Assembly (NCBI GenBank): GCA_964030785.1
Contig: OZ034977.1
Coordinates: 25,615,652-25,679,651 of the forward strand
Source of the DNA: Siderastrea siderea
Lineage: Eukaryota > Cnidaria > Anthozoa > Scleractinia > Rhizangiidae
Direction of reading: 5' to 3'
Length of the DNA: 64,000 bases
Below, piece by piece: positions 1 through 57,600 of the stretch (position 1 is the stretch's first letter; each line of letters begins with the position of its first letter). Position numbers and translations under genes: made by a program. Below the pieces are notes generated by a model. That model saw only the letters and a program-made list of their open reading frames with translations, ran no database searches and was not told the DNA's origin.

Positions 1-155
1 TGGATCATATATTTCAGTCTTTGAAAAGTGCCGTCTGTCGCGTGACATTGTAGGTCAGCTACGTCACTGTGAACTTGGGCGCGTGACCTTGCGTAATCGT
101 TACATTTCCTTGCTTGAATGTGTATTTTATACTTAAAGTAATGGTAAAATTACCA

Positions 156-161
156 AATAAA
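156..161 (+). terminator. Putative polyadenylation signal AATAAA for the transposase transcript
   Basis: Canonical eukaryotic hexamer, with T/GT-rich sequence downstream. It repeats at the same offset in each unit (for example 3867-3872). Function is inferred from position only. Confidence 0.45.
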
Positions 162-189
162 TCAAACAGATATGTAGTACTGTCTCTGT

Positions 190-195
190 TTTAAT
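190..195 (-). terminator. Possible minus-strand polyadenylation signal ATTAAA for Rep
   Basis: ATTAAA on the minus strand, about 140 nt past the Rep stop codon. It is the commonest natural variant of AATAAA, and no AATAAA was seen nearer on that strand. The evidence is weak and positional. Confidence 0.3.
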
Positions 196-244
196 ATATG
201 CCGTGAACAAAATGAATATATCAGCTATATTTCTCCAGTTTCAA

Positions 245-2287: not shown

Positions 2288-2298
2288 ATTTTAAAGCT

Positions 2299-2561: not shown

Positions 2562-2595
2562 CAAAAGTGTGAAATTCATCTCGTATAGAGGGAAG

Positions 2596-3696
2596 ATGGC
2601 TTTTACCGGTAAAATAAGTCCAGAAAGTCGTGCGTATGTCCTGTTTGCAATGAAATGCAAACGCCTCAGAAAAAGGGACATTATCGAGCAAGTTAATATA
2701 TCGCGGGCTTCACTTTATCGAATTTTAAAGCAAAAAAAGGATGCGAAACGGAAGAAAGCGCGTGCAAGTGAGGACACCGTCTTTGGTCGGCCACGCAAAC
2801 TAGGACCCCGAGAGGAGCGCATGTTGCTGCGAAAAATTCATCCACTGAGAAAAGCAGAAGGACAGTTTACTGTAAAGCGACTTATGCGAGAAGCAGGTAT
2901 TAATTCCAATAACGTATCCTGCAGGACTGTTCAACGTTTCTTACGTTCCAAAGGTTACAAATACCTACACGCGAGACAAAAAGGACTCTTAACAGAACAG
3001 GATATTGTCAAGCGATTAAAGTTCGCACGGGAGATGAAACGCGAACATACTGAAGATTTTTGGACAAAAGAGATTGCATTCTATTTAGATGGCGTAAGTT
3101 TTGTCCACAAATATAATCCCGCAGATCAAGCGCGTGCCCCTAAAGGACGAATTTGGCGTAAAGACGACGAGGGCTTAGCATTGGGCTGCACCGCGAAAGG
3201 CTCGCATTGTGGGACAGGGGGAAGAGTAGCCAAATTTATGGTTGCTATAACCTATAGGGAAGGAGTCATACTCTGTGAACACTACGATAATCTTAACGGG
3301 GCCTATTTTAAGGATTTAATTGAGCGAGAATTTGAACGGATGTTTAGGGACGCCAATAAGGGTACGTCCAAGCTTTTTATGCAAGATGGCGATCCCAGTC
3401 AGAATTCAGCGCTAGCACGTTCCGCATGGCAAGAGATAGGGGCCCAGCTGATGTCCTTGCCACCTAGGAGCGGAGACATTCATTGTATAGAATCTATCTT
3501 TCACATAGTGAAAATTAATTTGCGGGACGATGCACTGAAGAAGAACATAACTTATGAAACCTTTCCAGATTTCTGTAAACGCGTGGAGGACACGATCAGG
3601 TCCCTGGATAAGAAGATAATTGACAAGACGATAGAAACAATGCAGAAGAGAATAGAGTTAGTTATACAAAGAAAAGGACAGCGAACCAAATATTAA
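2596..3696 (+). CDS. Tc1/IS630-type DD34E transposase, copy 1
   Basis: A 366-aa protein from the ATG at 2596 (A at -3, G at +4). The frame stays open 27 bp upstream to a GTG, which is unlikely to be used in a eukaryote. Two N-terminal helix-turn-helix regions (about 22-48 and 91-121) flank a GRPRK AT-hook-like linker (64-68), the usual bipartite DNA-binding arrangement of Tc1-like transposases. The RNase H-like catalytic domain has Asp165 (FYLDGVSF), Asp264 (FMQDGDP) and Glu299 (HCIESIF). Exactly 34 residues separate the last two, the DD34E signature. PPRSGD before the Glu corresponds to the family's PPQSPDLNP block. The enzyme should bind terminal inverted repeats and cut and paste DNA at TA targets. 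The length is near the family norm and all catalytic residues are present, so it may be active. Confidence 0.9.
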   Translation: MAFTGKISPESRAYVLFAMKCKRLRKRDIIEQVNISRASLYRILKQKKDAKRKKARASEDTVFGRPRKLGPREERMLLRKIHPLRKAEGQFTVKRLMREAGINSNNVSCRTVQRFLRSKGYKYLHARQKGLLTEQDIVKRLKFAREMKREHTEDFWTKEIAFYLDGVSFVHKYNPADQARAPKGRIWRKDDEGLALGCTAKGSHCGTGGRVAKFMVAITYREGVILCEHYDNLNGAYFKDLIEREFERMFRDANKGTSKLFMQDGDPSQNSALARSAWQEIGAQLMSLPPRSGDIHCIESIFHIVKINLRDDALKKNITYETFPDFCKRVEDTIRSLDKKIIDKTIETMQKRIELVIQRKGQRTKY

Positions 3697-3955: not shown

Positions 3956-4061
3956 CGAGTAACCACGAGTAACCACGAGTAACCACTCATTAATTAAACA
4001 ACATTATCTGAACACTTATTGTCTTTCTATTTGGTTACTCGTGGTTACTCGTGGTTACTCG
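3956..4061. repeat. Iteron inverted repeat, unit 2
   Basis: Arms 3956-3985 and 4032-4061, identical to unit 1. This copy lies wholly between two complete genes: transposase 1 ends at 3696 and Rep 2 ends at 4045. Confidence 0.65.
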
Positions 4062-5574
4062 TTATCTCGGCGACGCTGTCATCACTGTCTCCTCCAAGAA
4101 CCAAAATTGCAAAACACTTCGGGCATGGCGGAATTTCTTTCTGTTGCTGCTGTGGGATCTGCGCATGAAAACGAAATATTTTCCAGCGCACAGCCATCAT
4201 CTCAGTCTCTTTGTCATCAATGGCTCCACTCTTGACGAAAATTATTTCATTCTTTCCTGTGGCGAAAATTGGCGTATCTTTGTCGAAAACTATGTCCTTT
4301 GCATAGTGTGACTTTGGAGCCGGCAAATGTACTAACTGCCCTTCCAGTAATAACAATAGGTCATGCCACGGAATAATGCAAGGCGACCACCTGAAATCAT
4401 TAAGAAAAATGCATTCTGCCTTTTCTGCGCCCACCCACGCGAAACTTGTACATGCGGGATTTGAAAAGGTATTAAAAATAACATTTAGAGGATTCAACAG
4501 AAAGGTTTTACCACAGTTAGCAACACCAATATTCATGATATTACGGTATTTTCCCCGTCCCTTCTCTAGTAAATCTTGAATACTCCTGCCATAATACTGA
4601 GCATCGATGCCGTTACATGCCAGTACCTCTTTAGCACATGTCAACCACTGCCCATAACAACCCTCCACGCACTGTCCTTCCTTCGCCTCATTTATCAGTT
4701 CGATTCTTGTTTTCGTCTGTCTGTCCAGTTGTTGTTTTGAATTCTCCATTTCCCAGGTAGTTTCCAAAACTTCAGCGACAACCTTAGGGCCCCTGTTAAC
4801 GATAAACTCCGCCAGATCAATTTTCCCCTCTTGTTTCTGTTCTCTTGCAAGAGCAAGTAACTCTGTGCGAGACTTGATATTCTTGGCGAGGATGATTTCG
4901 GAAAGTTCATAGCTTGTCATGCGTTTCCTCTTTGCCTTTCCCTTGGCCTTGGACTTGCTGTTAGTTGGTGCTTCCATTTCGTCAATCTTTCCGTGCTCGA
5001 ACTCGTCATCTTCGTCGCCCATGTCATCGTTTAAACCTCTCTTTGGTTGCTTACTGTTTGCTGCTAGTGAATTAGCAAAAGAAGCCCGGTTCGTTCTTGG
5101 CGGATTACTATTGCTGAGATCTGGATGGCCAGAACTCTGAATGTAATCTTCATCCTCTTTTGTCACGTACTGCCAGGCACTAAAATAATTTGCGTGGATA
5201 GCGGAGAAATGAACCGAGATTCCACACCGCTCTGACAAAAACCTCTTACTAGACAACCACCGTTTATTTTTATCCAACTTGACAGCCATGTGGTAGTGGA
5301 TACCAAAATTAAGGTGTCTTTCCATGGAACAACACCACTGAATTATTTTGGCTGGGGTATCATAGAAAGAATGAACAACGGCGTCAACGAAAGACTGTCT
5401 TGTAGGAAAGCGGGCTTCATCTGCTTGACTGTACGTTATTAAGTACACTTTACGTACAGCACGAGCGTTGATCTCTTGCCGGTTTACTTCAGGCATCTCG
5501 GTACCAGTATGCTCCTGTGTTTCACTTGCTTCGGAGGAAGCTGAATCGGACTCATATCCTTTTATCATTTCCAT
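4045..5574 (-). CDS. HUH-SF3 Rep, copy 2
   Basis: 509 aa, protein identical to copy 1. One silent difference is visible at 4954 (Lys codon). Confidence 0.88.
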   Translation of the reverse strand: MEMIKGYESDSASSEASETQEHTGTEMPEVNRQEINARAVRKVYLITYSQADEARFPTRQSFVDAVVHSFYDTPAKIIQWCCSMERHLNFGIHYHMAVKLDKNKRWLSSKRFLSERCGISVHFSAIHANYFSAWQYVTKEDEDYIQSSGHPDLSNSNPPRTNRASFANSLAANSKQPKRGLNDDMGDEDDEFEHGKIDEMEAPTNSKSKAKGKAKRKRMTSYELSEIILAKNIKSRTELLALAREQKQEGKIDLAEFIVNRGPKVVAEVLETTWEMENSKQQLDRQTKTRIELINEAKEGQCVEGCYGQWLTCAKEVLACNGIDAQYYGRSIQDLLEKGRGKYRNIMNIGVANCGKTFLLNPLNVIFNTFSNPACTSFAWVGAEKAECIFLNDFRWSPCIIPWHDLLLLLEGQLVHLPAPKSHYAKDIVFDKDTPIFATGKNEIIFVKSGAIDDKETEMMAVRWKIFRFHAQIPQQQQKEIPPCPKCFAILVLGGDSDDSVAEITSNHE

Positions 5575-6343
5575 AATGACTTCAAGAAGGGAAAACAAGT
5601 GTTATTATGCCTTGCGAAATTGATTGTGAACGTGCCGAAGACGACAACAATCACTTTGAAAATCGACATTTGATACGACCAAAAGATATCACACACAAAA
5701 TTCGTTAGCTAAAAACTTGATTTTTTAATGCTAAAAACTACTACACATGACAATTTTCTAAATCTGTACTTTACTTGGCGGATATTTCCTTTATGTAATG
5801 GCGTTGTACTCAGTTTCACTTTTTGCTGTTCAGCAAAGATTTTCAAACACAAATCCCCCCTCCCCCTATCCAATGTTGTACCGGGATAAACGCTGGTTCC
5901 CACCTAGCAAATTCAACACGGGATAAACGCTGGTTCCCACCTAGCAAATTCAACACGGGATAAACGCTGGTTCCCACCTAGCAAATTCAACATTGTTTGG
6001 GGGGGATGGGGGGTATATTTTAGTGGGTAAGGGGGATTTTAAAGCTAGGTATGCCAAAAAAAGGGGAATGTCTCAACACTTTTGACGCTCATTGTAGGTA
6101 TGCCAAAAAAAGGGGAATGTCTCAACACTTTTGACGCTCATTGTCCGAATGTGAAAACTTGGTATATTGGGAAAACAAAACGTTGCGTTACTCTGATTTG
6201 AACGTAAATTACGCAAATTAGCTAAATAATGACATTTATACCGATTTGCGTGACTTCTCGCTAATTAGTGCGAAAATAAAGTGATTTTTTCATTTGCACA
6301 GTGACGTCACAAAAGTGTGAAATTCATCTCGTATAGAGGGAAG

Positions 6344-7444
6344 ATGGCTTTTACCGGTAAAATAAGTCCAGAAAGTCGTGCGTATGTCCTGTTTGCAATG
6401 AAATGCAAACGCCTCAGAAAAAGGGACATTATCGAGCAAGTTAATATATCGCGGGCTTCACTTTATCGAATTTTAAAGCAAAAAAAGGATGCGAAACGGA
6501 AGAAAGCGCGTGCAAGTGAGGACACCGTCTTTGGTCGGCCACGCAAACTAGGACCCCGAGAGGAGCGCATGTTGCTGCGAAAAATTCATCCACTGAGAAA
6601 AGCAGAAGGACAGTTTACTGTAAAGCGACTTATGCGAGAAGCAGGTATTAATTCCAATAACGTATCCTGCAGGACTGTTCAACGTTTCTTACGTTCCAAA
6701 GGTTACAAATACCTACACGCGAGACAAAAAGGACTCTTAACAGAACAGGATATTGTCAAGCGATTAAAGTTCGCACGGGAGATGAAACGCGAACATACTG
6801 AAGATTTTTGGACAAAAGAGATTGCATTCTATTTAGATGGCGTAAGTTTTGTCCACAAATATAATCCCGCAGATCAAGCGCGTGCCCCTAAAGGACGAAT
6901 TTGGCGTAAAGACGACGAGGGCTTAGCATTGGGCTGCACCGCGAAAGGCTCGCATTGTGGGACAGGGGGAAGAGTAGCCAAATTTATGGTTGCTATAACC
7001 TATAGGGAAGGAGTCATACTCTGTGAACACTACGATAATCTTAACGGGGCCTATTTTAAGGATTTAATTGAGCGAGAATTTGAACGGATGTTTAGGGACG
7101 CCAATAAGGGTACGTCCAAGCTTTTTATGCAAGATGGCGATCCCAGTCAGAATTCAGCGCTAGCACGTTCCGCATGGCAAGAGATAGGGGCCCAGCTGAT
7201 GTCCTTGCCACCTAGGAGCGGAGACATTCATTGTATAGAATCTATCTTTCACATAGTGAAAATTAATTTGCGGGACGATGCACTGAAGAAGAACATAACT
7301 TATGAAACCTTTCCAGATTTCTGTAAACGCGTGGAGGACACGATCAGGTCCCTGGATAAGAAGATAATTGACAAGACGATAGAAACAATGCAGAAGAGAA
7401 TAGAGTTAGTTATACAAAGAAAAGGACAGCGAACCAAATATTAA
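6344..7444 (+). CDS. DD34E transposase, copy 2
   Basis: 366 aa, identical to copy 1, with Leu233. Intact catalytic triad. Confidence 0.9.
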   Translation: MAFTGKISPESRAYVLFAMKCKRLRKRDIIEQVNISRASLYRILKQKKDAKRKKARASEDTVFGRPRKLGPREERMLLRKIHPLRKAEGQFTVKRLMREAGINSNNVSCRTVQRFLRSKGYKYLHARQKGLLTEQDIVKRLKFAREMKREHTEDFWTKEIAFYLDGVSFVHKYNPADQARAPKGRIWRKDDEGLALGCTAKGSHCGTGGRVAKFMVAITYREGVILCEHYDNLNGAYFKDLIEREFERMFRDANKGTSKLFMQDGDPSQNSALARSAWQEIGAQLMSLPPRSGDIHCIESIFHIVKINLRDDALKKNITYETFPDFCKRVEDTIRSLDKKIIDKTIETMQKRIELVIQRKGQRTKY

Positions 7445-7703: not shown

Positions 7704-7809
7704 CGAGTAACCACGAGTAACCACGAGTAACCACTCATTAATTAAACAACATTATCTGAACACTTATTGTCTTTCTATTTGGTTACTCGTGGTTACTCGT
7801 GGTTACTCG
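7704..7809. repeat. Iteron inverted repeat, unit 3
   Basis: Arms 7704-7733 and 7780-7809, unchanged from unit 1. Confidence 0.65.
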
Positions 7810-9322
7810 TTATCTCGGCGACGCTGTCATCACTGTCTCCTCCAAGAACCAAAATTGCAAAACACTTCGGGCATGGCGGAATTTCTTTCTGTTGCTGCTG
7901 TGGGATCTGCGCATGAAAACGAAATATTTTCCAGCGCACAGCCATCATCTCAGTCTCTTTGTCATCAATGGCTCCACTCTTGACGAAAATTATTTCATTC
8001 TTTCCTGTGGCGAAAATTGGCGTATCTTTGTCGAAAACTATGTCCTTTGCATAGTGTGACTTTGGAGCCGGCAAATGTACTAACTGCCCTTCCAGTAATA
8101 ACAATAGGTCATGCCACGGAATAATGCAAGGCGACCACCTGAAATCATTAAGAAAAATGCATTCTGCCTTTTCTGCGCCCACCCACGCGAAACTTGTACA
8201 TGCGGGATTTGAAAAGGTATTAAAAATAACATTTAGAGGATTCAACAGAAAGGTTTTACCACAGTTAGCAACACCAATATTCATGATATTACGGTATTTT
8301 CCCCGTCCCTTCTCTAGTAAATCTTGAATACTCCTGCCATAATACTGAGCATCGATGCCGTTACATGCCAGTACCTCTTTAGCACATGTCAACCACTGCC
8401 CATAACAACCCTCCACGCACTGTCCTTCCTTCGCCTCATTTATCAGTTCGATTCTTGTTTTCGTCTGTCTGTCCAGTTGTTGTTTTGAATTCTCCATTTC
8501 CCAGGTAGTTTCCAAAACTTCAGCGACAACCTTAGGGCCCCTGTTAACGATAAACTCCGCCAGATCAATTTTCCCCTCTTGTTTCTGTTCTCTTGCAAGA
8601 GCAAGTAACTCTGTGCGAGACTTGATATTCTTGGCGAGGATGATTTCGGAAAGTTCATAGCTTGTCATGCGTTTCCTCTTTGCCTTTCCCTTGGCCTTGG
8701 ATTTGCTGTTAGTTGGTGCTTCCATTTCGTCAATCTTTCCGTGCTCGAACTCGTCATCTTCGTCGCCCATGTCATCGTTTAAACCTCTCTTTGGTTGCTT
8801 ACTGTTTGCTGCTAGTGAATTAGCAAAAGAAGCCCGGTTCGTTCTTGGCGGATTACTATTGCTGAGATCTGGATGGCCAGAACTCTGAATGTAATCTTCA
8901 TCCTCTTTTGTCACGTACTGCCAGGCACTAAAATAATTTGCGTGGATAGCGGAGAAATGAACCGAGATTCCACACCGCTCTGACAAAAACCTCTTACTAG
9001 ACAACCACCGTTTATTTTTATCCAACTTGACAGCCATGTGGTAGTGGATACCAAAATTAAGGTGTCTTTCCATGGAACAACACCACTGAATTATTTTGGC
9101 TGGGGTATCATAGAAAGAATGAACAACGGCGTCAACGAAAGACTGTCTTGTAGGAAAGCGGGCTTCATCTGCTTGACTGTACGTTATTAAGTACACTTTA
9201 CGTACAGCACGAGCGTTGATCTCTTGCCGGTTTACTTCAGGCATCTCGGTACCAGTATGCTCCTGTGTTTCACTTGCTTCGGAGGAAGCTGAATCGGACT
9301 CATATCCTTTTATCATTTCCAT
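7793..9322 (-). CDS. HUH-SF3 Rep, copy 3
   Basis: 509 aa, intact, same protein as copy 1. Confidence 0.88.
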   Translation of the reverse strand: MEMIKGYESDSASSEASETQEHTGTEMPEVNRQEINARAVRKVYLITYSQADEARFPTRQSFVDAVVHSFYDTPAKIIQWCCSMERHLNFGIHYHMAVKLDKNKRWLSSKRFLSERCGISVHFSAIHANYFSAWQYVTKEDEDYIQSSGHPDLSNSNPPRTNRASFANSLAANSKQPKRGLNDDMGDEDDEFEHGKIDEMEAPTNSKSKAKGKAKRKRMTSYELSEIILAKNIKSRTELLALAREQKQEGKIDLAEFIVNRGPKVVAEVLETTWEMENSKQQLDRQTKTRIELINEAKEGQCVEGCYGQWLTCAKEVLACNGIDAQYYGRSIQDLLEKGRGKYRNIMNIGVANCGKTFLLNPLNVIFNTFSNPACTSFAWVGAEKAECIFLNDFRWSPCIIPWHDLLLLLEGQLVHLPAPKSHYAKDIVFDKDTPIFATGKNEIIFVKSGAIDDKETEMMAVRWKIFRFHAQIPQQQQKEIPPCPKCFAILVLGGDSDDSVAEITSNHE

Positions 9323-10054
9323 AATGACTTCAAGAAGGGAAAACAAGTGTTATTATGCCTTGCGAAATTGATTGTGAACGTGCCGAAGACGACAACAATC
9401 ACTTTGAAAATCGACATTTGATACGACCAAAAGATATCACACACAAAATTCGTTAGCTAAAAACTTGATTTTTTAATGCTAAAAACTACTACACATGACA
9501 ATTTTCTAAATCTGTACTTTACTTGGCGGATATTTCCTTTATGTAATGGCGTTGTACTCAGTTTCACTTTTTGCTGTTCAGCAAAGATTTTCAAACACAA
9601 ATCCCCCCTCCCCCTATCCAATGTTGTACCGGGATAAACGCTGGTTCCCACCTAGCAAATTCAACACGGGATAAACGCTGGTTCCCACCTAGCAAATTCA
9701 ACATTGTTTGGGGGGGATGGGGGGTATATTTTAGTGGGTAAGGGGGATTTTAAAGCTAGGTATGCCAAAAAAAGGGGAATGTCTCAACACTTTTGACGCT
9801 CATTGTAGGTATGCCAAAAAAAGGGGAATGTCTCAACACTTTTGACGCTCATTGTCCGAATGTGAAAACTTGGTATATTGGGAAAACAAAACGTTGCGTT
9901 ACTCTGATTTGAACGTAAATTACGCAAATTAGCTAAATAATGACATTTATACCGATTTGCGTGACTTCTCGCTAATTAGTGCGAAAATAAAGTGATTTTT
10001 TCATTTGCACAGTGACGTCACAAAAGTGTGAAATTCATCTCGTATAGAGGGAAG

Positions 10055-11155
10055 ATGGCTTTTACCGGTAAAATAAGTCCAGAAAGTCGTGCGTATGTCC
10101 TGTTTGCAATGAAATGCAAACGCCTCAGAAAAAGGGACATTATCGAGCAAGTTAATATATCGCGGGCTTCACTTTATCGAATTTTAAAGCAAAAAAAGGA
10201 TGCGAAACGGAAGAAAGCGCGTGCAAGTGAGGACACCGTCTTTGGTCGGCCACGCAAACTAGGACCCCGAGAGGAGCGCATGTTGCTGCGAAAAATTCAT
10301 CCACTGAGAAAAGCAGAAGGACAGTTTACTGTAAAGCGACTTATGCGAGAAGCAGGTATTAATTCCAATAACGTATCCTGCAGGACTGTTCAACGTTTCT
10401 TACGTTCCAAAGGTTACAAATACCTACACGCGAGACAAAAAGGACTCTTAACAGAACAGGATATTGTCAAGCGATTAAAGTTCGCACGGGAGATGAAACG
10501 CGAACATACTGAAGATTTTTGGACAAAAGAGATTGCATTCTATTTAGATGGCGTAAGTTTTGTCCACAAATATAATCCCGCAGATCAAGCGCGTGCCCCT
10601 AAAGGACGAATTTGGCGTAAAGACGACGAGGGCTTAGCATTGGGCTGCACCGCGAAAGGCTCGCATTGTGGGACAGGGGGAAGAGTAGCCAAATTTATGG
10701 TTGCTATAACCTATAGGGAAGGAGTCATACTCTGTGAACACTACGATAATCTTAACGGGGCCTATTTTAAGGATTTAATTGAGCGAGAATTTGAACGAAT
10801 GTTTAGGGACGCCAATAAGGGTACGTCCAAGCTTTTTATGCAAGATGGCGATCCCAGTCAGAATTCAGCGCTAGCACGTTCCGCATGGCAAGAGATAGGG
10901 GCCCAGCTGATGTCCTTGCCACCTAGGAGCGGAGACATTCATTGTATAGAATCTATCTTTCACATAGTGAAAATTAATTTGCGGGACGATGCACTGAAGA
11001 AGAACATAACTTATGAAACCTTTCCAGATTTCTGTAAACGCGTGGAGGACACGATCAGGTCCCTGGATAAGAAGATAATTGACAAGACGATAGAAACAAT
11101 GCAGAAGAGAATAGAGTTAGTTATACAAAGAAAAGGACAGCGAACCAAATATTAA
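10055..11155 (+). CDS. DD34E transposase, copy 3
   Basis: 366 aa, intact, Leu233. A silent Arg codon change (CGG to CGA) at 10798 marks this copy. Confidence 0.9.
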   Translation: MAFTGKISPESRAYVLFAMKCKRLRKRDIIEQVNISRASLYRILKQKKDAKRKKARASEDTVFGRPRKLGPREERMLLRKIHPLRKAEGQFTVKRLMREAGINSNNVSCRTVQRFLRSKGYKYLHARQKGLLTEQDIVKRLKFAREMKREHTEDFWTKEIAFYLDGVSFVHKYNPADQARAPKGRIWRKDDEGLALGCTAKGSHCGTGGRVAKFMVAITYREGVILCEHYDNLNGAYFKDLIEREFERMFRDANKGTSKLFMQDGDPSQNSALARSAWQEIGAQLMSLPPRSGDIHCIESIFHIVKINLRDDALKKNITYETFPDFCKRVEDTIRSLDKKIIDKTIETMQKRIELVIQRKGQRTKY

Positions 11156-11414: not shown

Positions 11415-11520
11415 CGAGTAACCACGAGTAACCACGAGTAACCACTCATTAATTAAACAACATTATCTGAACACTTATTGTCTTTCTATTTGGTTACTCG
11501 TGGTTACTCGTGGTTACTCG
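11415..11520. repeat. Iteron inverted repeat, unit 4
   Basis: Arms 11415-11444 and 11491-11520. Confidence 0.65.
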
Positions 11521-13033: not shown

Positions 13034-13765
13034 AATGACTTCAAGAAGGGAAAACAAGTGTTATTATGCCTTGCGAAATTGATTGTGAACGTGCCGAAGA
13101 CGACAACAATCACTTTGAAAATCGACATTTGATACGACCAAAAGATATCACACACAAAATTCGTTAGCTAAAAACTTGATTTTTTAATGCTAAAAACTAC
13201 TACACATGACAATTTTCTAAATCTGTACTTTACTTGGCGGATATTTCCTTTATGTAATGGCGTTGTACTCAGTTTCACTTTTTGCTGTTCAGCAAAGATT
13301 TTCAAACACAAATCCCCCCTCCCCCTATCCAATGTTGTACCGGGATAAACGCTGGTTCCCACCTAGCAAATTCAACACGGGATAAACGCTGGTTCCCACC
13401 TAGCAAATTCAACATTGTTTGGGGGGGATGGGGGGTATATTTTAGTGGGTAAGGGGGATTTTAAAGCTAGGTATGCCAAAAAAAGGGGAATGTCTCAACA
13501 CTTTTGACGCTCATTGTAGGTATGCCAAAAAAAGGGGAATGTCTCAACACTTTTGACGCTCATTGTCCGAATGTGAAAACTTGGTATATTGGGAAAACAA
13601 AACGTTGCGTTACTCTGATTTGAACGTAAATTACGCAAATTAGCTAAATAATGACATTTATACCGATTTGCGTGACTTCTCGCTAATTAGTGCGAAAATA
13701 AAGTGATTTTTTCATTTGCACAGTGACGTCACAAAAGTGTGAAATTCATCTCGTATAGAGGGAAG

Positions 13766-44688: not shown

Positions 44689-47351
44689 CTGGTCAGTGTT
44701 GCTTAGATGGCAATACACAAAAAGGTTTTTATCACCACATGTCGCCGCTAACGTGGCCAAAGTTCTTTCTAGAGCCGCGTCACGCAATGCAAATCATCGG
44801 AATGGACATTTTACTAGCGGGTAGGGGAAGGGCAAAATCTGCTCTGATTCTTTTTAAACGGCTCAGGGTTCGAGAAATGGGAGGAACTAGTAATGGACTA
44901 AAAATACGAAACAAAATTAGTGCTACAGTTAGGCACCTCAACCTCTCGTGCCAGAATGCAGAAAAAGTAGTCACCCCTCGGCGTGAGTTGTAGGCATGCA
45001 AATAACAATGTTCGAACACGAAAATTAGCTAAAAAGGGTACGTGTACTAGCTTAAGTGAAAAACCTCTTCAAAACGTCGAGTCCAGAACATTAAAGTCGT
45101 TTTTATCAGGGAAATTGCGATGTGACTAACTAGTTTGTGCTTCTTGTTTTGGCTTAGAGGTTCCATTTTCTTGTTGTCGGAGTTTGTGGTTACAACACCA
45201 GACGAATCAAAAGCTTGAAAAAAACCGTTCCCTTACTTTCATGCACCAAGAATACCCAGGCCCGTAGAAGGGGGGGGGGGGGGGGGGCTCGAGTCCCCAG
45301 AAGTTTTCGAAGTTGAAAAAACATTACAATAAGTGAGCCAAAAAATATATAATTAAAACAATTTAATGTGCAACGAATAGTCTTAAATGCTGATGCTAAA
45401 AGTTCTTTTTATTATTTTACAACCTTTAACAGGGTTTGACATCTGTTGAGTCACTAGCTACCGGGCAAGTGGGCTTCAAAAATCTACTAGCCCACCGCAT
45501 ATTTCAGTCGCCCAGGTTCCTTACCAATGTCTTTCTTCACCCATATCACCTTGACCCTGGCATTATAGCTTTACTGTGAAGGACCTTAATGCCTTTAATA
45601 GCTAAGCGACTGCTGTGTATTTGCTGCAAGCTTTAAGCTCATCATGTTGTTTTAAAACAAGTCTAAGGAACAAAACAATTTTTATCTCACCAATCGAGTG
45701 ATAAAAGTTACGTTAACATTTACGAGAGTTAGGTAAAACAGGTCCGAAATTCGTAGCTTGGCTGTCGAAATGTTTCAATTTTAACAAACCTTGTAACTTT
45801 AAGGGTACTTTTTTAAAACTGATGCTATAAATTTGGTGGATGTTGCCAACAACTGTGTTGGCGAAAAAGCAAACAGGAAGCAGCTTTTTGGCAAATTGTC
45901 AACGAAGGATGTCCCCAAAAAGGTGTCGTTTTTGACGAAATCGACACAAACTGTGGCATTGTGAACAGAGTTAGTATCTATGTGCACGAGTGTGTATTTT
46001 GAAGGGGGGCGGGGGGGGGGGGGTGTGAAGGTTTTGACTAGGCCAATTTGCTCGCAGCATTTATTTCAGCCTTGGTGCGGCCCTGATACCACCAAAAGAG
46101 GTGCTACACTACTGGATACCACAAGTTACAAGTCAGTTTTTACAACGAACGCTTGAATACAATGACGATATGTCCCAGCCATCGTGGAAAACTTGGAATA
46201 GTGTCTAGCAGAAGCTGCAGCACAAGGGGCCGGGTCACGGTAAGGAAAAGGGGAGTGGCCAAAAAGTGAAAGAGGACTGGGGAAAAAGGGATCTGAAATT
46301 ATCTTCCGCTTGACTGGTTCGCTTGTAAAAGTTGGATCAGTTGAGTTTTATATTCGCTTGTGGACTATCCGAATATTAGCCAGGTTGTCGATGGAAGCCT
46401 CACTCTTCTCTTCGTCCTCATTAAGGTGTATGTAGAACGTGAAAGAGGTAACAGACGTTTAAGGGCAAGATGCTTGACGTATTTCTGTTATGATATCCTC
46501 ATATTCATTATGATAAGTATGCTGGCTGCTGTGAGAGATCTCGCTCACTGCGAACCTGTCTCAGTAAGATTCGTAAACAGAAATTCAGGAACAGAAAAAC
46601 CTCATTTTTTGTTACCATGGTTACGTGCCATATTTCACAGTCTTCAAACAGCACTGGCGTGCTGTTAGAGGCCCCACTCATTAGTCAGGATACACTAATG
46701 TAGACTAAATCAAACAGCTGACAAAAGAGCACAGTTAAACACTTCGATTGCACCCATTTGTTATGAAGAGAGAACCCTTCCTGTCCAAAACTCCATCCAA
46801 CCCTTTAACAGCGAACTGACTTTCACTCGTGATATAACTGTGCCTTGAACCGGTCCTGTGCCAGCTGAGAACCAGCAGACTGACACCAATGATCATAGGT
46901 AGAATACCCGCTCGTCAATTAACAAAAGGGAGCCCCATGTAGTTATAGGTTTTCCCCGTATTAAAGTTGGGTCTAGTTAATAATAGCGCCACTTCTGTTG
47001 CACCACTCACCTGTAACCATGTCTGTAAGCTTGTACAACGGTTGGAATTGCGTCTCAGACTACTAGGCTAGGGTAGCAAATACAATTTTTAATGGTTGTA
47101 ACAACACTGGTAATAAGTAAGAAAGACACACAACGCCATTAAAACCACGAATAATCCCTGCAATTAACACTGTATGTTATTTTACTTCACCTCAAAGGTT
47201 TTTCCCTTCCCCTACCCCCTAAAATGCCTTTGATACGCATTACGTGACAAACCGAATACGCACGCCGCGCCATTCACGTTTGGTCCCAATTTAGCAGGCA
47301 AATCTGATAATGCTTTTGTGCACTGAAAACTGAGCAACACTCGTATTAAAT
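44689..47351. other. Core of the TTAA element; no gene recognised
   Basis: AT-rich, non-coding in appearance. Two long guanine runs stand out: 18 G at 45270-45287, and 6 G, C, 13 G at 46004-46023. The open frame at 46360-46668 (102 codons) has no recognisable domain and is not called. Confidence 0.6.
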
Positions 47352-48206
47352 CAACTGAACCGTTGAGTAAGATGTCACAGTGTAGAAAGATGTCGAACGT
47401 TTTGGAAGAAAGGTTGTTGTTGAGCTGTTCGACCGTTTACAATACACTGACCCAGTTGGCGGTGTTCATTGGATGACATCAACAGGACCAAAATACGTCG
47501 AACGGCAAGAGAATCACTCGGAAATGGCCTCTGGACCTGTCCTCTACAGCAAATAAGGTAAGAGCATTTCGAACTGTTTTTCTGTTTGACGTTTTCGATC
47601 TCATATGGGTCGAAACACATTAAAATATGTGCGTGACTCGCGAATGATATGTTGCCAAGAAGGGTCAAACAACCTGCATTTTAACGAACTTTGAAAAGCT
47701 CTCGCGTCGCTCTCAATCATTTGCCCAAAGAAATTTTTGCAGCAATCCTGAGAACATCTTTTCTTAATTGAACAGCCAGAAGCTGAATCGATTTGAAGGT
47801 TTAGCACATGGTGAAAAATAATTTAATTCACGAAGTACTTTTCCTGATGAGAAATGTATACTTTCAAAATTAAATTATTCCAAACACAAAGAACAAGGCT
47901 GTTTCTACCAAATTCAGTTTTGAAGCTCTTGAGGGATTGCAAAAGTAAAATTGAGTGTTTAAAAGACGACAGAGGGATTTGTTTTTGCACGCGAACGCCT
48001 CAAATTGATGTCATAATTTACTGCTTCAAATGGCGATTTTAACGGAAGTTCGTTATTTGCATTTTTCTTTAAAATAAAAGGATATTTTGCCAAAAAAAGT
48101 ATCCAGTGATTTTAGTTATATTCTAACCTATCTAACATTAAAATATGAAAGAAATCGAATTTTCCACCCTTGCCGGGTTATGTTTGATTTTTACAGACAA
48201 GCGCTC
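47352..48206. repeat. Right long terminal inverted repeat
   Basis: Inverted partner of 43839-44688, ending GCGCTC directly before the second TTAA. Differences from the left arm imply the arms have aged since they were last homogenised. Confidence 0.88.
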
Positions 48207-48210
48207 TTAA
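48207..48210. repeat. Right TTAA target-site duplication
   Basis: Second copy of the TTAA target; the transposase sequence resumes right after it. Confidence 0.92.
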
Positions 48211-49262: not shown

Positions 49263-49368
49263 CGAGTAACCACGAGTAACCACGAGTAACCACTCATTAA
49301 TTAAACAACATTATCTGAACACTTATTGTCTTTCTATTTGGTTACTCGTGGTTACTCGTGGTTACTCG
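49263..49368. repeat. Iteron inverted repeat, unit 13
   Basis: Arms 49263-49292 and 49339-49368. Confidence 0.65.
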
Positions 49369-50881
49369 TTATCTCGGCGACGCTGTCATCACTGTCTCCT
49401 CCAAGAACCAAAATTGCAAAACACTTCGGGCATGGCGGAATTTCTTTCTGTTGCTGCTGTGGGATCTGCGCATGAAAACGAAATATTTTCCAGCGCACAG
49501 CCATCATCTCAGTCTCTTTGTCATCAATGGCTCCACTCTTGACGAAAATTATTTCATTCTTTCCTGTGGCGAAAATTGGCGTATCTTTGTCGAAAACTAT
49601 GTCCTTTGCATAGTGTGACTTTGGAGCCGGCAAATGTACTAACTGCCCTTCCAGTAATAGCAATAGGTCATGCCACGGAATAATGCAAGGCGACCACCTG
49701 AAATCATTAAGAAAAATGCATTCTGCCTTTTCTGCGCCCACCCACGCGAAACTTGTACATGCGGGATTTGAAAAGGTATTAAAAATAACATTTAGAGGAT
49801 TCAACAGAAAGGTTTTACCACAGTTAGCAACACCAATATTCATGATATTACGGTATTTTCCCCGTCCCTTCTCTAGTAAATCTTGAATACTCCTGCCATA
49901 ATACTGAGCATCGATGCCGTTACATTCCAGTACCTCTTTAGCACATGTCAACCACTGCCCATAACAACCCTCCACGCACTGTCCTTCCTTCGCCTCATTT
50001 ATCAGTTCGATTCTTGTTTTCGTCTGTCTGTCCAGTTGTTGTTTTGAATTCTCCATTTCCCAGGTAGTTTCCAAAACTTCAGCGACAACCTTAGGGCCCC
50101 TGTTAACGATAAACTCCGCCAGATCAATTTTCCCCTCTTGTTTCTGTTCTCTTGCAAGAGCAAGTAACTCTGTGCGAGACTTGATATTCTTGGCGAGGAT
50201 GATTTCGGAAAGTTCATAGCTTGTCATGCGTTTCCTCTTTGCCTTTCCCTTGGCCTTGGATTTGCTGTTAGTTGGTGCTTCCATTTCGTCAATCTTTCCG
50301 TGCTCGAACTCGTCATCTTCGTCGCCCATGTCATCGTTTAAACCTCTCTTTGGTTGCTTACTGTTTGCTGCTAGTGAATTAGCAAAAGAAGCCCGGTTCG
50401 TTCTTGGCGGATTACTATTGCTGAGATCTGGATGGCCAGAACTCTGAATGTAATCTTCATCCTCTTTTGTCACGTACTGCCAGGCACTAAAATAATTTGC
50501 GTGGATAGCGGAGAAATGAACCGAGATTCCACACCGCTCTGACAAAAACCTCTTACTAGACAACCACCGTTTATTTTTATCCAACTTGACAGCCATGTGG
50601 TAGTGGATACCAAAATTAAGGTGTCTTTCCATGGAACAACACCACTGAATTATTTTGGCTGGGGTATCATAGAAAGAATGAACAACGGCGTCAACGAAAG
50701 ACTGTCTTGTAGGAAAGCGGGCTTCATCTGCTTGACTGTACGTTATTAAGTACACTTTACGTACAGCACGAGCGTTGATCTCTTGCCGGTTTACTTCAGG
50801 CATCTCGGTACCAGTATGCTCCTGTGTTTCACTTGCTTCGGAGGAAGCTGAATCGGACTCATATCCTTTTATCATTTCCAT
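49352..50881 (-). CDS. HUH-SF3 Rep, copy 13 (A319E)
   Basis: 509 aa with Glu319 (base 49926) and the silent Leu change at 49660. Confidence 0.88.
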   Translation of the reverse strand: MEMIKGYESDSASSEASETQEHTGTEMPEVNRQEINARAVRKVYLITYSQADEARFPTRQSFVDAVVHSFYDTPAKIIQWCCSMERHLNFGIHYHMAVKLDKNKRWLSSKRFLSERCGISVHFSAIHANYFSAWQYVTKEDEDYIQSSGHPDLSNSNPPRTNRASFANSLAANSKQPKRGLNDDMGDEDDEFEHGKIDEMEAPTNSKSKAKGKAKRKRMTSYELSEIILAKNIKSRTELLALAREQKQEGKIDLAEFIVNRGPKVVAEVLETTWEMENSKQQLDRQTKTRIELINEAKEGQCVEGCYGQWLTCAKEVLECNGIDAQYYGRSIQDLLEKGRGKYRNIMNIGVANCGKTFLLNPLNVIFNTFSNPACTSFAWVGAEKAECIFLNDFRWSPCIIPWHDLLLLLEGQLVHLPAPKSHYAKDIVFDKDTPIFATGKNEIIFVKSGAIDDKETEMMAVRWKIFRFHAQIPQQQQKEIPPCPKCFAILVLGGDSDDSVAEITSNHE

Positions 50882-51676
50882 AATGACTTCAAGAAGGGAA
50901 AACAAGTGTTATTATGCCTTGCGAAATTGATTGTGAACGTGCCGAAGACGACAACAATCACTTTGAAAATCGACATTTGATACGACCAAAAGATATCACA
51001 CACAAAATTCGTTAGCTAAAAACTTGATTTTTTAATGCTAAAAACTACTACACATGACAATTTTCTAAATCTGTACTTTACTTGGCGGATATTTCCTTAA
51101 TATAAATATCGTGAAGACATGATAGCACCCCGTCCACAACAAAAAAGGCAATACTGACAATATGACCACCTCGGACAATGAGCGACAAAAGTAGTTGAGA
51201 CATTTTCTAAAATGTAATGGCGTTGTACTCAGTTTCACTTTTTGCTGTTCAGCAAAGATTTTCAAACACAAATCCCCCCTCCCCCTATCCAATGTTGTAC
51301 CGGGATAAACGCTGGTTCCCACCTAGCAAATTCAACACGGGATAAACGCTGGTTCCCACCTAGCAAATTCAACATTGTTTGGGGGGGATGGGGGGTATAT
51401 TTTAGTGGGTAAGGGGGATTTTAAAGCTAGGTATGCCAAAAAAAGGGGAATGTCTCAACACTTTTGACGCTCATTGTCCGAATGTGAAAACTTGGTATAT
51501 TGGGAAAACAAAACGTTGCGTTACTCTGATTTGAACGTAAATTACGCAAATTAGCTAAATAATGACATTTATACCGATTTGCGTGACTTCTCGCTAATTA
51601 GTGCGAAAATAAAGTGATTTTTTCATTTGCACAGTGACGTCACAAAAGTGTGAAATTCATCTCGTATAGAGGGAAG

Positions 51677-52777
51677 ATGGCTTTTACCGGTAAAATAAGT
51701 CCAGAAAGTCGTGCGTATGTCCTGTTTGCAATGAAATGCAAACGCCTCAGAAAAAGGGACATTATCGAGCAAGTTAATATATCGCGGGCTTCACTTTATC
51801 GAATTTTAAAGCAAAAAAAGGATGCGAAACGGAAGAAAGCGCGTGCAAGTGAGGACACCGTCTTTGGTCGGCCACGCAAACTAGGACCCCGAGAGGAGCG
51901 CATGTTGCTGCGAAAAATTCATCCACTGAGAAAAGCAGAAGGACAGTTTACTGTAAAGCGACTTATGCGAGAAGCAGGTATTAATTCCAATAACGTATCC
52001 TGCAGGACTGTTCAACGTTTCTTACGTTCCAAAGGTTACAAATACCTACACGCGAGACAAAAAGGACTCTTAACAGAACAGGATATTGTCAAGCGATTAA
52101 AGTTCGCACGGGAGATGAAACGCGAACATACTGAAGATTTTTGGACAAAAGAGATTGCATTCTATTTAGATGGCGTAAGTTTTGTCCACAAATATAATCC
52201 CGCAGATCAAGCGCGTGCCCCTAAAGGACGAATTTGGCGTAAAGACGACGAGGGCTTAGCATTGGGCTGCACCGCGAAAGGCTCGCATTGTGGGACAGGG
52301 GGAAGAGTAGCCAAATTTATGGTTGCTATAACCTATAGGGAAGGAGTCATACTCTGTGAACACTACGATAATCTTAACGGGGCCTATTTTAAGGATTTAA
52401 TTGAGCGAGAATTTGAACGGATGTTTAGGGACGCCAATAAGGGTACGTCCAAGCTTTTTATGCAAGATGGCGATCCCAGTCAGAATTCAGCGCTAGCACG
52501 TTCCGCATGGCAAGAGATAGGGGCCCAGCTGATGTCCTTGCCACCTAGGAGCGGAGACATTCATTGTATAGAATCTATCTTTCACATAGTGAAAATTAAT
52601 TTGCGGGACGATGCACTGAAGAAGAACATAACTTATGAAACCTTTCCAGATTTCTGTAAACGCGTGGAGGACACGATCAGGTCCCTGGATAAGAAGATAA
52701 TTGACAAGACGATAGAAACAATGCAGAAGAGAATAGAGTTAGTTATACAAAGAAAAGGACAGCGAACCAAATATTAA
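51677..52777 (+). CDS. DD34E transposase, copy 13 (Leu233)
   Basis: 366 aa, intact; last transposase of the array. Confidence 0.9.
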   Translation: MAFTGKISPESRAYVLFAMKCKRLRKRDIIEQVNISRASLYRILKQKKDAKRKKARASEDTVFGRPRKLGPREERMLLRKIHPLRKAEGQFTVKRLMREAGINSNNVSCRTVQRFLRSKGYKYLHARQKGLLTEQDIVKRLKFAREMKREHTEDFWTKEIAFYLDGVSFVHKYNPADQARAPKGRIWRKDDEGLALGCTAKGSHCGTGGRVAKFMVAITYREGVILCEHYDNLNGAYFKDLIEREFERMFRDANKGTSKLFMQDGDPSQNSALARSAWQEIGAQLMSLPPRSGDIHCIESIFHIVKINLRDDALKKNITYETFPDFCKRVEDTIRSLDKKIIDKTIETMQKRIELVIQRKGQRTKY

Positions 52778-53036
52778 ATGCGTTATTATCTGTGGATCAT
52801 ATATTTCAGTCTTTGAAAAGTGCCGTCTGTCGCGTGACATTGTAGGTCAGCTACGTCACTGTGAACTTGGGCGCGTGACCTTGCGTAATCGTTACATTTC
52901 CTTGCTTGAATGTGTATTTTATACTTAAAGTAATGGTAAAATTACCAAATAAATCAAACAGATATGTAGTACTGTCTCTGTTTTAATATATGCCGTGAAC
53001 AAAATGAATATATCAGCTATATTTCTCCAGTTTCAA

Positions 53037-53142
53037 CGAGTAACCACGAGTAACCACGAGTAACCACTCATTAATTAAACAACATTATCTGAACACTTAT
53101 TGTCTTTCTATTTGGTTACTCGTGGTTACTCGTGGTTACTCG
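53037..53142. repeat. Iteron inverted repeat, unit 14
   Basis: Arms 53037-53066 and 53113-53142. Confidence 0.65.
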
Positions 53143-54655
53143 TTATCTCGGCGACGCTGTCATCACTGTCTCCTCCAAGAACCAAAATTGCAAAACACTT
53201 CGGGCATGGCGGAATTTCTTTCTGTTGCTGCTGTGGGATCTGCGCATGAAAACGAAATATTTTCCAGCGCACAGCCATCATCTCAGTCTCTTTGTCATCA
53301 ATGGCTCCACTCTTGACGAAAATTATTTCATTCTTTCCTGTGGCGAAAATTGGCGTATCTTTGTCGAAAACTATGTCCTTTGCATAGTGTGACTTTGGAG
53401 CCGGCAAATGTACTAACTGCCCTTCCAGTAATAGCAATAGGTCATGCCACGGAATAATGCAAGGCGACCACCTGAAATCATTAAGAAAAATGCATTCTGC
53501 CTTTTCTGCGCCCACCCACGCGAAACTTGTACATGCGGGATTTGAAAAGGTATTAAAAATAACATTTAGAGGATTCAACAGAAAGGTTTTACCACAGTTA
53601 GCAACACCAATATTCATGATATTACGGTATTTTCCCCGTCCCTTCTCTAGTAAATCTTGAATACTCCTGCCATAATACTGAGCATCGATGCCGTTACATT
53701 CCAGTACCTCTTTAGCACATGTCAACCACTGCCCATAACAACCCTCCACGCACTGTCCTTCCTTCGCCTCATTTATCAGTTCGATTCTTGTTTTCGTCTG
53801 TCTGTCCAGTTGTTGTTTTGAATTCTCCATTTCCCAGGTAGTTTCCAAAACTTCAGCGACAACCTTAGGGCCCCTGTTAACGATAAACTCCGCCAGATCA
53901 ATTTTCCCCTCTTGTTTCTGTTCTCTTGCAAGAGCAAGTAACTCTGTGCGAGACTTGATATTCTTGGCGAGGATGATTTCGGAAAGTTCATAGCTTGTCA
54001 TGCGTTTCCTCTTTGCCTTTCCCTTGGCCTTGGATTTGCTGTTAGTTGGTGCTTCCATTTCGTCAATCTTTCCGTGCTCGAACTCGTCATCTTCGTCGCC
54101 CATGTCATCGTTTAAACCTCTCTTTGGTTGCTTACTGTTTGCTGCTAGTGAATTAGCAAAAGAAGCCCGGTTCGTTCTTGGCGGATTACTATTGCTGAGA
54201 TCTGGATGGCCAGAACTCTGAATGTAATCTTCATCCTCTTTTGTCACGTACTGCCAGGCACTAAAATAATTTGCGTGGATAGCGGAGAAATGAACCGAGA
54301 TTCCACACCGCTCTGACAAAAACCTCTTACTAGACAACCACCGTTTATTTTTATCCAACTTGACAGCCATGTGGTAGTGGATACCAAAATTAAGGTGTCT
54401 TTCCATGGAACAACACCACTGAATTATTTTGGCTGGGGTATCATAGAAAGAATGAACAACGGCGTCAACGAAAGACTGTCTTGTAGGAAAGCGGGCTTCA
54501 TCTGCTTGACTGTACGTTATTAAGTACACTTTACGTACAGCACGAGCGTTGATCTCTTGCCGGTTTACTTCAGGCATCTCGGTACCAGTATGCTCCTGCG
54601 TTTCACTTGCTTCGGAGGAAGCTGAATCGGACTCATATCCTTTTATCATTTCCAT
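53126..54655 (-). CDS. HUH-SF3 Rep, copy 14 (A319E)
   Basis: 509 aa with Glu319 (base 53700). Private silent change at 54599 (Thr codon). It is intact although its unit is truncated. Confidence 0.88.
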   Translation of the reverse strand: MEMIKGYESDSASSEASETQEHTGTEMPEVNRQEINARAVRKVYLITYSQADEARFPTRQSFVDAVVHSFYDTPAKIIQWCCSMERHLNFGIHYHMAVKLDKNKRWLSSKRFLSERCGISVHFSAIHANYFSAWQYVTKEDEDYIQSSGHPDLSNSNPPRTNRASFANSLAANSKQPKRGLNDDMGDEDDEFEHGKIDEMEAPTNSKSKAKGKAKRKRMTSYELSEIILAKNIKSRTELLALAREQKQEGKIDLAEFIVNRGPKVVAEVLETTWEMENSKQQLDRQTKTRIELINEAKEGQCVEGCYGQWLTCAKEVLECNGIDAQYYGRSIQDLLEKGRGKYRNIMNIGVANCGKTFLLNPLNVIFNTFSNPACTSFAWVGAEKAECIFLNDFRWSPCIIPWHDLLLLLEGQLVHLPAPKSHYAKDIVFDKDTPIFATGKNEIIFVKSGAIDDKETEMMAVRWKIFRFHAQIPQQQQKEIPPCPKCFAILVLGGDSDDSVAEITSNHE

Positions 54656-57600
54656 AATGACTTCAAGAAGGGAAAACAAGTGTTATTATGCCTTGCGAAA
54701 TTGATTGTGAACGTGCCGAAGACGACAACAATCACTTTGAAAATCGACATTTGATACGACCAAAAGATATCACACACAAAATTCGTTAGCTAAAAACTTG
54801 ATTTTTTAATGCTAAAAACTACTACACATGACAATTTTCTAAATCTGTACTTTACTTGGCGGATATTTCCTTAATATAAATATCGTGAAGACATGATAGC
54901 ACCCCGTCCACAACAAAAAAGGCAATACTGACAATATGACCACCTCGGACAATGAGCGACAAAAGTAGTTGAGACATTTTCTAAAATGTAATGGCGTTGT
55001 ACTCAGTTTCACTTTTTGCTGTTCAGCAAAGATTTTCAAACACAAATCCCCCCTCCCCCTATCCAATGTTGTACCGGGATAAACGCTGGTTCCCACCTAG
55101 CAAATTCAACATTGTTTGGGGGGGATGGGGGGTATATTTTAGTGGGTAAGGGGGATTTTAAAGCTAGGTATGCCAAAAAAAGGGGAATGTCTCAACACTT
55201 TTGACGCTCATTGTGTGTATAGCCATGTATAGCCATGTATAGCTGTGTATAGCCATGTATAGCTATGTATAGCTGTGTATAGCTATGTATGGCTATGTAT
55301 ATCTGTGTATAGCCATGTATAGTTGTGTATGGTTGTGTATAGCCATGTATAGTCATGTTTAGCTGTGTATAGACATATATAGCTGTGTAAAGCTGTGTAT
55401 AGCTATGTATGGCTATGTATATCTGTGTATAGCCATGTATAGCTGTGTATAGCTGTGTATAGCCATGTACAGCCATGTAGAGCCATGTATAGCCATGTAT
55501 AGCTGTGTATAGCCATTTATAGCTGTGTATAGCTGTGTATAGCCATGTATAGCTGTGTATAGTCATGTAAAGCTGTGTATAGCCATCTATAGCTGTGTAT
55601 AGCTGTGTATAGCTATGTATAGCTATGTATAGCTGTGTATAGCCATGTATAGCCATGTATAGCTGTGTATAGCTATGTATGGCTATGTATATCTGTGTAT
55701 AGCCATGTATAGCTGTGTATAGCTGTGTATAGCCATGTATAGCGGTGTATAGCCATGTATAGCTGTGTATAGCCATATATAGCTGTGTCTAGTCATGTAT
55801 AGCTGTGTATAGCCATGTATAGCTGTGTATAGCTGAGTATAGCTATGTATGGCTATATATATCAGTGTATAGCCATGTATAGCTATGTATAGCTGTGTAT
55901 AGCCATGTATAGCTGTGTCTAGTCATGTATAGCTGTGTATAGCCATGTATAGCTGTGTATAGCTGAGTATAGCTATTTATGGCTATGTATATCTGTGTAT
56001 ACCCATGTATAGCTGTGTATAGCTGTGTATAGACATGTATAGCTGTGTATAGTCATGTATAGCTGTGTATAGCCGTGTATAGTTGTGTATAGCTATGTAT
56101 GGCTATGTATAACTGTGTATAGCAATGTATGGCTGTGTATAGCTGTGTATAACCATGTACAGCCATGTATAGCCATGTATAGCTGTGTATAGCCATGTAT
56201 AGCTAAGTATAGCTGTGTATAGCTTTGTATGGCTATGTATATCTGTGTATAGCCATGTATAGTTGTGTATAGTTGTGTATAGCCATGTATAGCCATGTTG
56301 AGTTTTGTATAGCCATGTATATCTGTGTAAAGCTGTGTCTAGCTATGTATGGCTATGTATATCTGTGTATAGCCATGTATAGCTGTGTATAGCTGCGTAT
56401 AGCTATGTACAGCCATGTATAGCCATGTATAGCCATGTATAGCTGTGTATAGCCATGTATAGCTGTGTATAGCTGTGTATAGCCATGTATAGCTGTGTAT
56501 AGTCATGTATAGCTGTGTATAGCCATCTATAGCTGTGTATAGCTGTGTATAGCTATGTATAGTTATGTATAGCTGTGTATAGCCATGTATAGCCATGTAG
56601 AGCTGTGTATAGCTATGTACGGCTATGTATATCTGTGTATAGCCATGTATAGCTGTGTATACCTGTGTATAGCCATGTATAGCTGTGTATAGCCATGTAT
56701 AGCTGTGTATAGCCATGTATAGCTGTGTATAGCTGTGTATAGCTATGTATGGCTATGTATATCTGTGTATAGCCATGTATAGCTGTGTATAGCTGTGTAT
56801 AGCCATGTATAGCTGTGTCTAGTCATGTATAGCTGTGTATAGCCATGTATAGCTGTGTATAGCTGTGTATAGCTATGTATGGCTATGTATATCTGTGTAT
56901 AGCTATGTTTAGCTGTGTATAGCTGTGTATAGTCATGTATTACTGTGTACAGCCATGTATAGCTGTGTATAGCTGTGTATAGCTATGTATGGCTATGTGT
57001 ATCTGTGTATAGCCATGTATAGCTGTGTATAGTTATGTATAGCTGTGTATAGCTGTGTAGAGCCATGTATATCTGTGTATAGCTATGTATGGCTATGTAT
57101 ATCTGTGTATAGCCATGTATAGCTGTGTATAGCTGTGTATAGCCATGTATAGCTGTGTATAGTCATGTATAGCTGTGTATAGCCATGTATAGCTGTGTAT
57201 AGCTGTGTATAGCTATGTATAGCTATGTATATCTGTGTATAGCCATGTATAGCTTTGTATAGCTGTGTATAGCCATGTATAGCTGTGTCTAGTCATGTAT
57301 AGCTGTGTATAGCCATGTATAGCTGTGTATAGCTGAGTATAGCTATGTATGGCTATGTATATCTGTGTATAGCCATGTATAGCTGTGTATAGCTGTGTAT
57401 AGACATGTATAGCTGTGTATAGTCATGTATAGCTGTGTATAGCCATGTATAGCTGTGTATAGCTGTGTATAGCTATGTATAGTTATGTATAGCTGTGTAT
57501 AGCTGTGTATAGCCATGTATAGCTGTGTATAGCTATGTATGGCTATGTATATCTGTGTATAGCCATGTATAGCTGTGTATAGCTGTGTACAGTCATGTAT

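Follow-up and report, generated by a model that had tools for sequence, protein, structure and literature searches.

A candidate mobile element in the coral Siderastrea siderea that combines an HUH-SF3 Rep with a Tc1-type transposase

We analysed a window of 64,000 nucleotides from the stony coral Siderastrea siderea (C12:25615652-25679651 of an 831-Mb, 402-contig genome) and searched the same genome for further copies of its contents. Over window positions 1-55213, units of about 3.7 kb stand in tandem, each with divergently oriented genes for a Rep protein, composed of an HUH endonuclease and a superfamily 3 (SF3) helicase, and for a Tc1-like DD34E transposase. We interpret the unit as a two-enzyme mobile element, in which the transposase integrates the element and Rep would replicate a circular form and make concatemers, and give this reading a probability of roughly 60%. 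The sequence shows that the integrated single form consists of a body between two copies of a terminal module, its outermost inverted repeats abutting 2-bp duplications that are mostly TA, and most of the tandem arrays read, full or derivative, are bounded by one outer pair of inverted repeats and one duplication. Insertion by the transposase, via the inverted repeats and into TA-like targets, is well supported.

The window contains 14 Rep open reading frames (ORFs) on the - strand, each of 517 amino acids, at positions 334-1887, 4045-5598, 7793-9346, 11504-13057, 15215-16768, 18926-20479, 22637-24190, 26348-27901, 30059-31612, 33770-35323, 37432-38985, 41206-42759, 49352-50905 and 53126-54679. 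On the + strand, 11 intact transposase ORFs of 375 amino acids (2569-3696, 6317-7444, 10028-11155, 13739-14866, 17450-18577, 24872-25999, 28583-29710, 32294-33421, 35956-37083, 39730-40857 and 51650-52777) are accompanied by one copy shortened to 328 amino acids by a stop (21161-22147) and one split by an insert. Most units measure 3711 bp, with variants of 3748, 3662 and 3774 bp; among 11 units compared, the distance from a reference unit is 0-4 substitutions, and block differences of 37, 49 and 112 bp occur between units.

Rep, identified from its ORF, Pfam matches on 30 relatives and fold, contains the motifs HYH (H101, H103), YVTK (Y144-K147) and, as Walker A, GVANCGKT, and residues H101, H103, Y144, K147, G358, N361 and K364 are invariant across 30 aligned Reps. 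In a fold search of the PDB, it resembles a geminivirus-type HUH nuclease joined to an SF3 helicase of the adeno-associated virus (AAV)/papillomavirus type, with likeness to the Reps of AAV, geminiviruses and redondoviruses; it thus has the domain pair of Reps from circular Rep-encoding single-stranded (CRESS) DNA viruses. In the transposase, identified from its ORF and domain matches, none of the 30 aligned rows departs from D174, D273 and E308, the last two of which are separated by 34 residues. Domain matches to HTH_Tnp_Tc3_2 (E 2.1e-9) and DDE_3 (E 1.6e-6; 28.4 bits, with the cut-off at 28.6) and a match of the 30-row profile to Sleeping Beauty (E 9.2e-15) place a DD34E triad beside a Tc1-type helix-turn-helix, as in Tc1/mariner (IS630) enzymes. 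A preliminary description of this DNA had reported units of this size pairing the two enzymes, their divergent layout, the three Rep motifs and a complete DD34E triad, all of which the ORFs and invariant residues bear out.

The terminal module, of 179-265 bp, is flanked by transposon inverted repeats. It starts with CAATGAGCG and finishes with CGCTCATTG in family 1, to which the window belongs, and has CAATCACTGCC and GGCAGTGATTG in these places in family 2; since modules both start and finish with inverted-repeat ends, every module holds both transposon ends, the left and right terminal inverted repeats (TIR_L and TIR_R). The last module of the window (54950-55213, + strand) runs from TIR_L (CAATGAGCG...) through a core to TIR_R (...CGCTCATTG) and forms the outer right end of the array, whose edge at 55213 falls at an inverted-repeat end; judging from TIR positions, complete modules also lie within the array at 39256-39556, 43030-43330 and 51176-51476 (+ strand). 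The core, a candidate Rep origin exemplified by positions 2143-2266, comprises a C-tract, CAATGTTG, 37-bp direct repeats, CAACATTG and a G-tract, and this order of C-tract, CAATGTTG, loop, CAACATTG and G-tract recurs, by alignment, in both family 1 and family 2 and, by eye, in a third family. As a single strand, the module folds far better than shuffled sequences (z -5.6 and -5.5), a result for which the inverted ends alone would account in part. A second candidate origin, recurring in each unit and exemplified by positions 244-351, is an iteron hairpin between the convergent 3' ends of the genes, in which three copies of ACGAGTAACC and three of GGTTACTCGT make up an inverted repeat. Neither candidate hairpin contains a clear CRESS-type nonanucleotide by eye, none having been searched for systematically.

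The search with Rep, in which the best 83 of 492 candidates were scored and all 13 dispersed Rep loci among them read, shows how the element lies outside arrays. At 12 of the 13 loci, a body sits between two modules over 3882-4005 bp, that is, a dispersed element is one unit plus an extra copy of the module, with the modules at both ends in the same orientation. Ten of these copies belong to family 1 (L009-L015, L019-L021) and all have both genes, Rep being frame-shifted in three. The other two, L016 and L017, constitute family 2 and likewise have both genes, their Rep being 52% and their transposase about 46% identical to those of the window (tblastn); the transposase match of L016 contains one stop, ahead of its ATG. 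The remaining locus, L018, which we treat as a rearranged copy, is the sole dispersed Rep locus without both outer ends: its Rep, of 473 amino acids and assigned to family 3 (L018:3154-5724), lies between two inverted 291-nt copies containing the module core. Matching 2-bp flanks occur at 11 of the 12 single copies, TA in eight and CA, TC and AG in one each. A Tc1 copy nested by chance within a Rep repeat and amplified once, or an artefact of assembly, to which near-identical array units can give rise, is scarcely credible as an explanation of the pairing: it is contradicted by 12 separate insertions with differing flanks, 11 of them with duplications, by two families divergent in protein, and by the shared longest-contig sizes that point to pairing elsewhere (see below). 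The earlier view of Rep and transposase as parts of a single mobile unit is upheld by the ten copies of family 1 and the two of family 2, as well as by the three shared contig sizes above 8 kb and the correlated divergences described below.

The same ends recur at the level of arrays. The window portion is the right end of array A, which spans 187 kb (C12:25484259-25670864), has TIR_L and TIR_R as its outer ends and contains 42 scored full-length Rep copies, one of them with a stop. Array B (C12:31006114-31040107), with nine units, is flanked by TA on both sides, as is array C of family 2 (C1:19557119-19612344; about 15 units by length, of which nine were scored, about 6 kb being unread). Arrays of derivative units have the flanks CA/CA at C7:39.06M and TA/TA at both C12:26.49M and C12:20.57M, and the array at C3:24.51M has TIR_R at its right end. 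Both outer inverted repeats are present in six of the eight arrays, with an exact duplication in five of these six. An exact 2-bp duplication was found in 16 of 18 insertions, single and tandem, and random pairing of left with right flanks gave 9.7 on average (p 1e-5); the duplication is TA in 12 and another dinucleotide in four (CA twice, TC and AG), and two insertions have none. With terminal inverted repeats at 12 of 13 dispersed loci and in six of eight arrays, and with TA duplication, the insertions have the marks of Tc1/mariner elements.

The derivative arrays came from the search with the transposase, in which the best 109 of 555 candidates were scored. Their units are spaced 2076, 2086 or about 2450 bp apart, the transposase match stops at residue 239-255 and no Rep match accompanies them among the matches listed. 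In the one derivative unit read (L035, on C7), the module, the transposase gene's 5' portion, the 3' iteron hairpin and both ends of the Rep gene survive, and the Rep nuclease and helicase are absent; the remaining derivative arrays are known from their ends, and their spacing and missing Rep match indicate that they too are without usable Rep. Retention of both candidate origins together with loss of the enzymes would be expected of a helper-dependent replicon and fits either origin equally. A derivative single copy at C8:18.96M has TIR_L, but the 401 bases read where TIR_R is predicted do not contain it. The transposase search also returned a full-length copy (97%) at C14:38670353-38671477, with no adjoining Rep among the matches listed.

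Beyond this genome, we found 930 Rep homologues at E ≤1e-3 and 661 transposase homologues, as well as 647 homologues of the family 2 Rep out of 7999 candidates sharing most words; among the 120 Rep matches listed, just two relatives are named, and these come from stony corals, Acropora millepora and Porites evermanni. As a proxy for pairing, we compared the longest-contig sizes of Rep and transposase homologues, using the best 120 matches of each search. Nine sizes are common to 172 Rep and 120 transposase sizes, a number never reached in 400 shifts of 1-200 bases either way (mean 2.6, maximum 7), and three of them exceed 8 kb (shifted mean 0.01, maximum 1); of the six short sizes, two or three may be due to chance. 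Equal sizes suggest the same contig, and hence that both genes travel together in other assemblies. Rep and transposase distances, moreover, correlate across 11 pairs, nine defined by equal longest-contig size and two from this genome (Mantel r 0.625, 0 of 20,000 permutations). In 33 of the 120 best Rep matches, the longest contig measures 3.3-4.3 kb, about one unit, which fits circles and collapsed arrays alike. Between the families in the coral, synonymous differences have reached or nearly reached saturation and pN, the proportion of nonsynonymous differences, is 0.335 for Rep and 0.389 for the transposase, so that both genes have been retained as proteins.

The origin of Rep raises the alternative that an endogenous single-stranded DNA virus of parvovirus- or CRESS-like type was first deprived of its capsid gene and then came to be carried by a Tc1 element. 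The closeness of its fold to AAV, geminivirus and redondovirus Reps and the parvovirus-like repeats described in lower animals (part of PMC3198968) speak for such an ancestry, which we nonetheless judge quite improbable as an account of the element, given that Rep and the transposase are the sole ORFs of at least 150 amino acids in the window units (introns and shorter genes not having been looked for) and that two families keep both genes together. No Rep relative was found in IMG/VR viral contigs with either a single Rep or the 30-Rep alignment as query, nor any relative of the window Rep in prokaryote genomes or any Rep match in PHROGs, and a sequence search of the PDB (P0001, A1) gave weak matches to unrelated NTPases only. 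A plain endogenous virus is rejected by the missing capsid ORF of at least 150 amino acids and the joint retention of both genes, and a parvovirus by that same missing ORF and by the ends of the copies, which are duplicated modules bearing inverted repeats.

How single copies and arrays might arise from the same two enzymes can be outlined as follows. Rep would nick a candidate origin, the module core or the 3' iteron hairpin, and thereby generate a rolling circle of one body and one module. As its body is flanked by two modules, the integrated copy would amount to a partial dimer, and a chromosomal single copy, arranged like partial-dimer geminivirus clones, could be open to replicational release. 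With the origin in the module, a unit circle would be freed from the single copy in this manner; were the 3' hairpin the origin, the circle would have to come from recombination of one module with the other. The transposase would then pair the TIR_L and TIR_R of different modules, and the inserted piece would comprise n bodies and n+1 modules. The donor of such a piece would need at least two modules, as found in an integrated copy or expected in a multimer; because a monomer circle has one module and could yield a small module only, Rep-made multimers would serve as the substrate, and Rep would be the natural candidate for making both circles and multimers. In the joint model of the preliminary description, integration by the transposase is thus sustained by the inverted repeats and 2-bp duplications, and circles and concatemers made by Rep are the part that we infer.

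A competing explanation needs no Rep activity: a Tc1-type transposon, ordinary but for its terminal direct repeats, once captured a Rep gene, and arrays grew after insertion by unequal crossing-over between the terminal modules. Insertion of a whole array and growth in place would leave identical outer repeats and an identical duplication, arrays are formed also by derivatives without usable Rep, and variants are common to blocks of neighbouring window units, 747T>G for instance to seven consecutive ones, a pattern that speaks for duplication or exchange within the array. We consider capture rather unlikely all the same, since between families the constraint on Rep at least equals that on the transposase and the pairing seems to have been kept, unlike that of a passenger, and since capture leaves the origin of a terminal direct repeat with both inverted repeats unexplained. 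Furthermore, none of the eight arrays has 2-4 units, whereas singles are many, in what is a small sample among the matches listed. Insertion of concatemers and growth in place may both be at work.

The blocks of shared variants are one of several observations that weigh against the two-enzyme reading. Most of the window consists of 3711-bp units whose module (2082-2395, + strand, and likewise in the other units of this length) is without TIR_L and has TIR_R twice, owing to a 49-bp duplication (2298-2396), so that single excision of these units is impossible. At the ends of insertions, no exact duplication flanks L014 (AT and TA) or array A, whose flanks TA and TG both lie within a TGTATAGC satellite; the 121 bases read where the C3:24.51M array should end on the left contain no TIR_L; and the array on C313 begins within a unit and continues past the end of its contig. 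Among dispersed loci, two stops in the transposase match of L017 indicate that this copy may be broken, and L018 has neither a transposase ORF of at least 120 amino acids nor the module-body-module layout. Family 1 by itself has too few differences to reveal selection, constraint being suggested by only one comparison in 14 (p 0.0494). The pairing proxy is indirect: in a first, smaller comparison, six shared sizes were reached by two of 120 shifts and only two long contigs stood out, and the pair of size 3819 looks mismatched, its Rep being 73% and its transposase 48% identical to those of the 13745 pair. Finally, the circle, the Rep nick and excision are hypothetical steps.

By its ends and integrating enzyme, the element is a Tc1-type transposon, and by gene content a Rep replicon, in a layout of which we found no description. 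With Tc1/mariner (IS630) elements such as Sleeping Beauty it shares DD34E, terminal inverted repeats and TA duplication, and it departs from them in its Rep gene, its two modules that each have both inverted repeats, its multi-unit insertions and a size two to three times that usual for the group. Helitrons, which to our knowledge have a different helicase and neither inverted repeats, target duplication nor a DDE enzyme, are ruled out by the inverted repeats and target duplication. The likeness to them lies in an HUH protein within a eukaryotic transposon (part of PMC6668415). The closest counterpart is the geminivirus-like transposon of the truffle Tuber melanosporum, where degraded Rep and transposase ORFs lie inside 37-bp inverted repeats (PMC3198968, in its section on the element). 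Both have Rep-like and transposase ORFs, terminal inverted repeats and recent multiplication; the truffle element, however, has a fungal host, interrupted or truncated ORFs and no obvious target duplication, and that section describes neither terminal modules, arrays nor the type of transposase. Compared with this description, the coral element stands apart by intact genes, 2-bp duplications, modules, arrays and an AAV/papilloma-like helicase fold. The preliminary description, which knew of no named class with both enzymes, was nearly right in view of this degraded truffle repeat; what had escaped it were the modules at the ends, the target duplications, and the dispersed copies and derivative arrays elsewhere in the genome. 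Among the titles and abstract openings listed from the open-access literature, we found no description of such an element apart from PMC3198968, which is no proof of its absence from print.

Two further systems offer partial parallels. Tandem clones and integrated DNA of geminiviruses also have a duplicated presumed origin around one body and head-to-tail copies; the part of PMC3187698 concerned describes no transposase, inverted repeat or target duplication, and release by Rep, inferred in the coral, is established there. In Teratorn, likewise, viral replication functions are fused to a cut-and-paste transposon, but at 180 kb and from piggyBac and a herpesvirus, whereas the coral element joins Tc1 and an HUH-SF3 Rep in 3.7 kb, with no capsid seen (part of PMC10175614). 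The same part states that multiplied endogenous single-stranded DNA viruses are thought to integrate via the Rep nuclease, which is experimentally unconfirmed; the ends of the coral element, by contrast, point to a DDE transposase. Tentatively, and with more doubt than confidence, we propose that the element is a transposing replicon, which would alternate between a Rep-driven rolling-circle plasmid and Tc1-type insertion in the chromosome, have a partial-dimer integrated form with an origin per module from which Rep frees circles, and insert Rep-made concatemers of up to dozens of units in one event, thereby generating large satellite-like arrays as well as helper-dependent defective ones. 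If this is true, rolling-circle replication and cut-and-paste transposition, usually apart, would be united in a two-gene element of 3.7 kb, with a direct route from mobile element to long satellite-like array, and entry of Rep replicons into animal chromosomes would find an explanation in a transposase; the claim that single-stranded DNA replicons can become transposons could be put to the test in living animals whose copies are intact.

Array A also contains and adjoins other repeats. A 4368-bp insert (window 43839-48206) with inverted ends of about 695 bp interrupts one transposase copy, and TTAA on both of its sides suggests a non-autonomous element of the piggyBac type. Further left, a Rep copy is broken by a stretch of about 22 kb (C12:25546707-25568579; L024, L025), the parts of which that were read contain no units; the edges of this interruption look like inverted copies of each other, which suggests another insertion. 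A TGTATAGC-based satellite of about 8 kb adjoins the array on the right (window 55214-63193) and also adjoins its left end, so that array A seems to lie inside satellite. Past the satellite, the window contains a 75-bp tandem duplication (63289-63435).

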